Shown here piece after piece: positions 5,756-7,043 of a stretch of DNA of 16,438 nucleotides (the first letter of the stretch is position 1; each line of letters begins with the position of its first letter). This stretch comes from Deltaproteobacteria bacterium. GTDB lineage: Bacteria > DRYD01. The DNA lies in assembly GCA_028276365.1 (NCBI GenBank), contig JAPYWL010000028.1, forward strand, positions 1 through 16,438. Direction: 5' to 3'. The notes under the pieces are model-generated. The model did not search any database and was not told the origin of the DNA. It worked only from the letters and a program-made list of their open reading frames with translations. A program made the position numbers and the translations under genes.

Positions 5756-5820
5756 AAATGTATAGATTAATTAAATTAATTTAAATAAAGATGTTTAATA
5801 TTATTAATTCTTTTTTTAAG

Positions 5821-5830
5821 TTTTTTTTTT
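5821..5830 (+). other. T10 homopolymer, possible slippage site upstream of the YvcK gene
   Basis: Ten T residues separate an ATG-initiated frame (ATG at 5791, closed by TAA at 5830-5832) from the open frame that continues into YvcK. Adding one T, or a -1 slip, would join the two into one protein. Long T runs are known sites of polymerase slippage, ribosomal frameshifting and sequencing error. Confidence 0.4.
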
Positions 5831-5936
5831 AATTTTAAAGGCTCGGGGTTTAAAAAGATATATCCTTAGTTTTTTCTTATTTTTAATTACTTTTATTTTT
5901 CTTTTTTTAGTTATTTTTTATTACTTTAAGAAAATA

Positions 5937-7043
5937 TTGATTATTATTATCATGTTTTTTTTGTTAATTTTTATATATTTATTTGGGCTTTATATTTTTT
6001 TGGTTAAATTTTTTAAAAATGAGGAAAATTTAAAGGAATATATAAGTGATAATTTTTTAATAAAGAGGGGTAAGGTAGTAGTTATAGGGGGAGGAAGTGG
6101 TATATCTAATATATTAAGGGGAATAAAAAATGAGTTTGATTATGTTGTTTCAATATCTACAGTAACTGATGATGGGGGGTCTACTGGTAAGATTTTAAAA
6201 ATTTATGAAGATATTTTACCTGTTGGGGATCTAAGAAATTGTTTAGCAAGTTTATCTTCTAATGAAGTTTTACAAAAACTATTACAATATAGATTTGATA
6301 GAGGAGAGTTGGCGGGACATGCTTTAGGAAATTTTATACTTTTAGCTTTATATAAAATATCTAATAATAATCTTAGTTTAATGGGGGAATATATTAATAA
6401 TATTTTTAAAATTAAGGGAGTAGTTTTACCTTCTGCTAAGAGAAGAGGTATTTTAGTAGCTTATTTATCTAATAATCAAGTTGTAAAGGGAGAAACTAAT
6501 ATTAATGAGTTTATTTCTTCTAATCCTGATGTTTGTATTGATAAAATATATTTAGAAGATTTAACTGATGAAGATGTTAATGAGCAAGCTATAGATAATA
6601 TTTTAACAGCTGATATAATAGTAGTTGGTCCTGGAAGTTTGTATTCCAGTATATTACCTAATTTTTTATTAACCCCTATTTTGAATGCTTATAAAAACTC
6701 TAAAGCTACTAAAATTTATATCTCTAATATTATGAATCAACCTAATGAAATTAAACAATATAAGCTATCAAATTATTTAGAAATTCTAAAAAAATATGGA
6801 TTATCTTTTGATTATATATTGTTTAACAATAAGCCTATAAAAAAAGATATATTGGATAAGTATTTTAATAAGGAAAAATTTTATAAAATTATTGAAAATG
6901 ATTTGGATTTAGATTATTTGAATAAAAATAAAATAGTATTAATAGAAGGCGATTTTATAGATGATGAATCTGATTTAATAAGACATGATTCTTTTAAAGT
7001 TTCAAAAATAATTAAAAATATTTATTTAAGTAAAATACCTTAA
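5937..7043 (+). CDS. yvcK: YvcK/CofD-like protein (gluconeogenesis factor family), membrane-anchored form
   Basis: YvcK proteins bind UDP-sugars and are needed for growth on gluconeogenic carbon and for normal cell-wall synthesis. The 2-phospho-L-lactate transferase-like fold is shown by GGGSG at 51-55, DDGGSTG at 78-84, GDLRNCL at 97-103, GHALGN at 127-132 and GPGSLYSS at 231-238. Residues 1-26 from the TTG at 5937 are a hydrophobic segment; an ATG lies at 5952. Neither start has a good ribosome binding site. The same frame is open back to 5820 and encodes a basic GLKRY motif followed by another long hydrophobic stretch, as in cyanobacterial YvcK with two membrane segments. The true N-terminus is therefore probably upstream, but no ATG, GTG, TTG or CTG lies in that stretch. 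The usual Firmicutes neighbours rapZ and whiA are absent. Confidence 0.92.
   Translation: MIIIIMFFLLIFIYLFGLYIFLVKFFKNEENLKEYISDNFLIKRGKVVVIGGGSGISNILRGIKNEFDYVVSISTVTDDGGSTGKILKIYEDILPVGDLRNCLASLSSNEVLQKLLQYRFDRGELAGHALGNFILLALYKISNNNLSLMGEYINNIFKIKGVVLPSAKRRGILVAYLSNNQVVKGETNINEFISSNPDVCIDKIYLEDLTDEDVNEQAIDNILTADIIVVGPGSLYSSILPNFLLTPILNAYKNSKATKIYISNIMNQPNEIKQYKLSNYLEILKKYGLSFDYILFNNKPIKKDILDKYFNKEKFYKIIENDLDLDYLNKNKIVLIEGDFIDDESDLIRHDSFKVSKIIKNIYLSKIP

Follow-up and report, generated by a model that had tools for sequence, protein, structure and literature searches.

A yvcK gene split at a T10 run, with four further genes split at A/T runs in two species of one genus, probably kept expressed by transcriptional slippage

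The question that this locus raises is how a YvcK protein with a membrane-anchor N-terminus is made when the reading frame encoding that N-terminus has no canonical start in front of it. The window, that is, the whole analysed stretch of 16,438 nucleotides, is contig 78 of G000, a 1.59-Mb draft genome with a GC content of 24% in the part that was sampled, and as judged by reading of the translations it also carries fliI and a fliJ-like gene. On the forward strand, the yvcK frame is closed upstream by TAA at 5817-5819 and stays open between 5820 and the stop at 7043. Re-reading of the sequence confirmed the claim of the first-pass annotation that this frame holds no ATG, GTG, TTG or CTG before 5937: the first canonical start is TTG5937 and the next is ATG5952, these two being the only ones nearby. 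The stretch of 5820-5936 encodes, on the evidence of the sequence and of the N-terminal alignment, the GLKRY motif and a first hydrophobic segment, and the remaining 5937-7043 encodes a second hydrophobic segment and the CofD/YvcK core. This CofD-related core lies above the curated cutoff, with 270 bits against TIGR01826 (cutoff 196) and 231 against PF01933 (cutoff 30).

Further upstream, ATG5791 opens a mini-ORF (5791-5832, forward strand) that encodes MFNIINSFFKFFF and ends with the stop TAA at 5830-5832 directly after a T10 run at exactly 5821-5830; position 5830, where the mini-ORF had been said to close, is the first base of that stop codon. One extra T in the T10 run joins the two frames, as had been claimed, with the joined translation MFNIINSFFKFFFLILKARGLKRYIL... 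continuing across the whole YvcK domain. A frame shift at the T7 run of 5811-5817 is ruled out, because an added T there runs into TAA. We propose that transcriptional slippage keeps a split yvcK expressed in this genus, and that the same holds for the four further genes described below, with a probability of about 0.7. In the proposed mechanism, RNA polymerase would slip back on T10 and add one U in a fraction of the transcripts (+1, or −2/+4). On the slipped mRNAs, the ribosomes starting from ATG5791, the proposed true start, would pass into the yvcK frame and produce YvcK at full length with the two-membrane-segment anchor, the mini-ORF giving its first 13 residues, and the faithful mRNAs would give only the 13-residue peptide.

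The order is represented by seven genomes, among which G001 is the sole other genome of the genus of G000. Its YvcK is 75% identical to that of G000, and its yvcK has the same layout of ATG, 30 nt, T10 and stop, the run being of equal length. The mini-ORF there encodes MYNIFYSFFRFFF, which has 9 of the 13 residues in common with its G000 counterpart, and the −1 frame then reads LILKTRGLKRYIFGFF, with LILKTRGLKRY. The two 13-codon mini-ORFs differ by four non-synonymous substitutions and one synonymous substitution, which are too few for dN/dS. Since the starts in the joined frame of G001 are the mini-ORF ATG, a GTG within the first hydrophobic segment and, later, only TTG and GTG, neither TTG5937 nor ATG5952 is common to the two species. 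It is noted that the YvcK N-terminus has G-x-KR-(W/Y) and, after it, two hydrophobic segments in several lineages, among them another family of the order, represented by G006, where the anchored YvcK is unbroken; the mini-ORF residues align with other YvcK N-termini. The first-pass annotation had described this N-terminus as known from cyanobacterial YvcK, which is too narrow as to lineage. Homologues that start near 5937 with no conservation upstream, which would have spoken against its proposal, are not seen in G001; in the sister genus g2, YvcK does consist of the core only, without the membrane segment.

ATT starts occur in bacteria, and translation could begin from ATT5832 or another non-canonical codon, with the mini-ORF being irrelevant, as would be consistent with the 20-nt stretch from the T run through AATTTTAAA being identical in G000 and G001. 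Such a start, however, would leave 7 residues ahead of KRY, compared with 13-21 in the homologues and 21 from ATG5791, and no SD is present nearby. Moreover, it fails for recF and the other three genes below, because these break inside the protein. An ATT start is thus possible but weaker, and its chance is small.

The four further genes were found in an analysis that covered about 416 kb of sampled sequence from G000 and 440 kb from G001, together with the surroundings of all the G000 runs of at least 10 T and of the runs listed for G001. They are recF and a family-2 glycosyltransferase (GT2) gene, both broken at T10, a CCA-adding-type (PolyA_pol) nucleotidyltransferase gene, broken at A10, and a DUF58-like gene, broken at T9 in the sampled sequence (the label being a reading of the protein layout, with no match in Pfam). 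In all five genes, yvcK included, the break is common to the two species, lies at a run of at least 9 A or T and needs one extra base (+1 nt). For recF, the GT2 gene and the DUF58-like gene, neither G000 nor G001 was found to have an intact second copy; a distant second nucleotidyltransferase is present in G000. The orthologues of all four genes are unbroken in g2, and recF is unbroken in G006 too. The joined recF, nucleotidyltransferase and DUF58-like proteins align without gaps through the junction and the joined GT2 protein with a two-residue insertion, and the Pfam domains SMC_N (residues 3-355) and Glycos_transf_2 (residues 5-189) extend over the breaks. Most simply, this is read as breaks that arose before the two species split, with no decay of the downstream parts afterwards. 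This genomic pattern is solid, and being genus-wide it lies beyond the single-window view of the first-pass annotation, whose option of slippage or frameshifting is supported by G001 and these four genes. Because the yvcK break is common to the two species and four like breaks exist, rescue by a stutter in RNA copying is suggested, which would restore the four genes in the same way; the addition of the extra base in the RNA, its frequency and its regulatory use, if any, are what we infer from this pattern.

Two other candidates at A8 runs, the HIT protein/aspartyl-tRNA synthetase pair in G000 and the aldolase/Gfo-Idh pair in G001, are ordinary adjacent genes, each with its own start, and background decay or error is assumed for the breaks away from runs in an MFS gene of G001 and an alcohol dehydrogenase gene of G000. 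A 5'-nucleotidase-like gene (L174 on contig 88 of G000; L175 in G001) has no canonical start before its NDMHGK motif; T10 cuts off its leader MIIQKLINEFKNKINN in G000, whereas the similar leader of G001 is in frame and closes with TAA, no run lying close to it.

The lengths of the runs in genes are also informative. Relative to synonymous-codon shuffles, the in-frame A/T runs of 6-8 come close to expectation (a ratio of 0.77 to 1.22), whereas in-frame T9 falls to 0.55 and 0.35 of expectation. In-frame T10 in intact genes numbers 0 versus 8.1 ± 2.3 expected in G000 and 1 versus 11.8 ± 2.5 in G001, and in-frame A10 numbers 3 versus 6.7 and 0 versus 12.8; the avoidance of long in-frame runs is stronger for T than for A. 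Together with the matching layout in G001, the depletion of in-frame T10 in both genomes marks the yvcK arrangement as more than a chance feature. In G000, all the T10 runs that can be placed in the sense direction in genes are at breaks (yvcK, recF, GT2 and 5'-nucleotidase-like genes), and several genes, e.g., ruvX and trmD, have A10 in frame. The exact run length is kept between the species in 4 of 18 distinct, comparable in-frame runs of at least 9, compared with 5 of 6 break-site runs of G000, the sixth being that of the 5'-nucleotidase-like gene (one-sided Fisher p about 0.015); this test is supportive only, because the choice of cases was not blind.

If the true runs were one base longer and had been under-called in both genomes, it would be expected that all five shared sites appear to need +1, as they do, and that runs of 11 would be missing, as in the whole genome of G000, which has no T or A run of exactly 11 despite about 35 runs of 10. 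Against this, the same under-calling must have recurred at the identical five genes in two separate assemblies, one of the shared sites being T9, and it implies several in-frame T11 alongside zero in-frame T10. Longer runs and the in-frame A10 of ruvX and trmD are normally called, and G001 has runs of 11. The second species has the break at an identical position with an identical run length, and like breaks occur at four other genes, which makes the sequencing error that had been listed among the options unlikely; we give an assembly artefact only a very slight chance.

It is also noted that putative lipoprotein genes have long T runs in a conserved leader about 45-80 nt 5' of their starts (L061, L069, L078 and L080 in G000; L083, L094 and L100 in G001). 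The runs are T10-T17 in these loci, with T12-T17 occurring in G000, and they reach T26 at other places in G001. Differing in length from copy to copy, they resemble phase-variable promoters or leaders. By analogy with these variable runs in both genomes, the run length in the DNA of the five genes might differ between cells, with the assemblies having caught the off state. RecF and the CCA-adding-type enzyme, however, are not surface contingency genes, and the 'off' length would have to be identical in both species at all five genes, which leaves this explanation with hardly any probability.

Ribosomal −1 frameshifting must be weighed as well, for U10 contains the slippery heptamer U UUU UUU just before UAA, and a slip there would join the mini-ORF to yvcK with both the DNA and the RNA having ten bases. 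The −1 direction suits each of the five shared sites, and both yvcK genes have a weak hairpin immediately 3' of the run. If the ribosome were the slipping machine, the heptamer would suffice, yet the frame breaks cluster at 9-10 nt, though runs of 7-8 nt are far commoner, and T is avoided more strongly than A. The folding downstream of the runs is near chance and inconsistent between the species (z from −2.2 to +1.1 over 11 sequences), and no SD-like motif was found upstream of the break sites. The 9-10 nt threshold, the stronger avoidance of T, the +1 at the five shared sites and the lack of consistent stimulators together point to RNA polymerase rather than the ribosome, so that ribosomal frameshifting is possible but weaker, and in our estimate rather improbable. 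Transcriptional slippage fits the +1 direction because transcription insertions are mostly single bases in A/T runs, the dominant transcription indel, and rise exponentially with run length (PMC5574713); moreover, in many bacterial genomes selection against A/T runs can be seen from a length of 9 nt (PMC1088944).

Some observations count against transcriptional slippage. In Buchnera no restored frame was detected (PMC5574713), and run avoidance can also be explained by replication slippage. Run breaks present in G001 only lie on contig 7 (L184, L189), on contig 2 near 1895 and on contig 24 near 3976 (L098), in genes for a FAD-dependent oxidoreductase (T7, +1), a flippase-like protein (T9, +1) and a DpnII-like protein (A10, −1). 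The T7 break and the opposite-direction A10 break may be plain pseudogenes; the same oxidoreductase gene is independently broken at a different place in G002 of the sister genus (contig 5 near 44,400-45,250, L187). A stronger version of the slippage reading is that the runs are a genus-wide programmed device, where selection keeps 9-10 nt slippery runs in all five genes and slippage determines the amounts of the products, including membrane-anchored YvcK, and may adjust them to growth conditions. Control of the amount of membrane-anchored YvcK by slippage is possible, and the device as a whole we regard as tentative and on balance unlikely.

If transcriptional slippage does rescue these genes, the phenomenon would be wider and long-lived, with at least five sites in two species and in genes of DNA repair, tRNA maturation and cell-wall control. 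In AT-rich metagenome-assembled genomes, such genes would be wrongly truncated or discarded by gene callers. It is expected from transcriptional slippage that metatranscriptomes show run-length heterogeneity at these sites.

Finally, we compare the present case with known systems. The core domain is that of YvcK/GlmR, the UDP-GlcNAc-binding protein (TIGR01826), with a match far above the cutoff, the difference here being the membrane-anchor N-terminus coded across a frame break. As in the bacterial cases of transcriptional slippage in Thermus dnaX (A9), Shigella spa13 and IS elements (PMC1088944, PMC5009743), an A/T run of at least 9 lies within the gene and the product depends on added bases, whereas those cases are programmed and the use of both products would be speculative here. 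The closest likeness is with Blochmannia and Buchnera, where homopolymer frameshifts rescued by transcriptional slippage are described in PMC3017870 (citing Tamas 2008 and Wernegreen 2010) and in the review PMC5009743, eight genes of Blochmannia vafer having such frameshifts (PMC3017870). There too the genome is AT-rich, a single indel lies in a poly(A/T) of about 9-11 with no further decay, the frameshifts are common to different species and housekeeping genes are hit. By contrast, the yvcK break here lies 10 codons past the start, slippage is predicted from the genomes, and these are of 1.6-1.9 Mb with flagellar genes, while Blochmannia and Buchnera are strongly reduced endosymbionts. Slippage-rescued homopolymer frameshifts are best known from such endosymbionts of insects, in which genome decay is taken to produce them as a by-product; this kind of rescue is itself already known, and what is new is its proposed presence in a lineage whose genomes are larger and carry flagellar genes.
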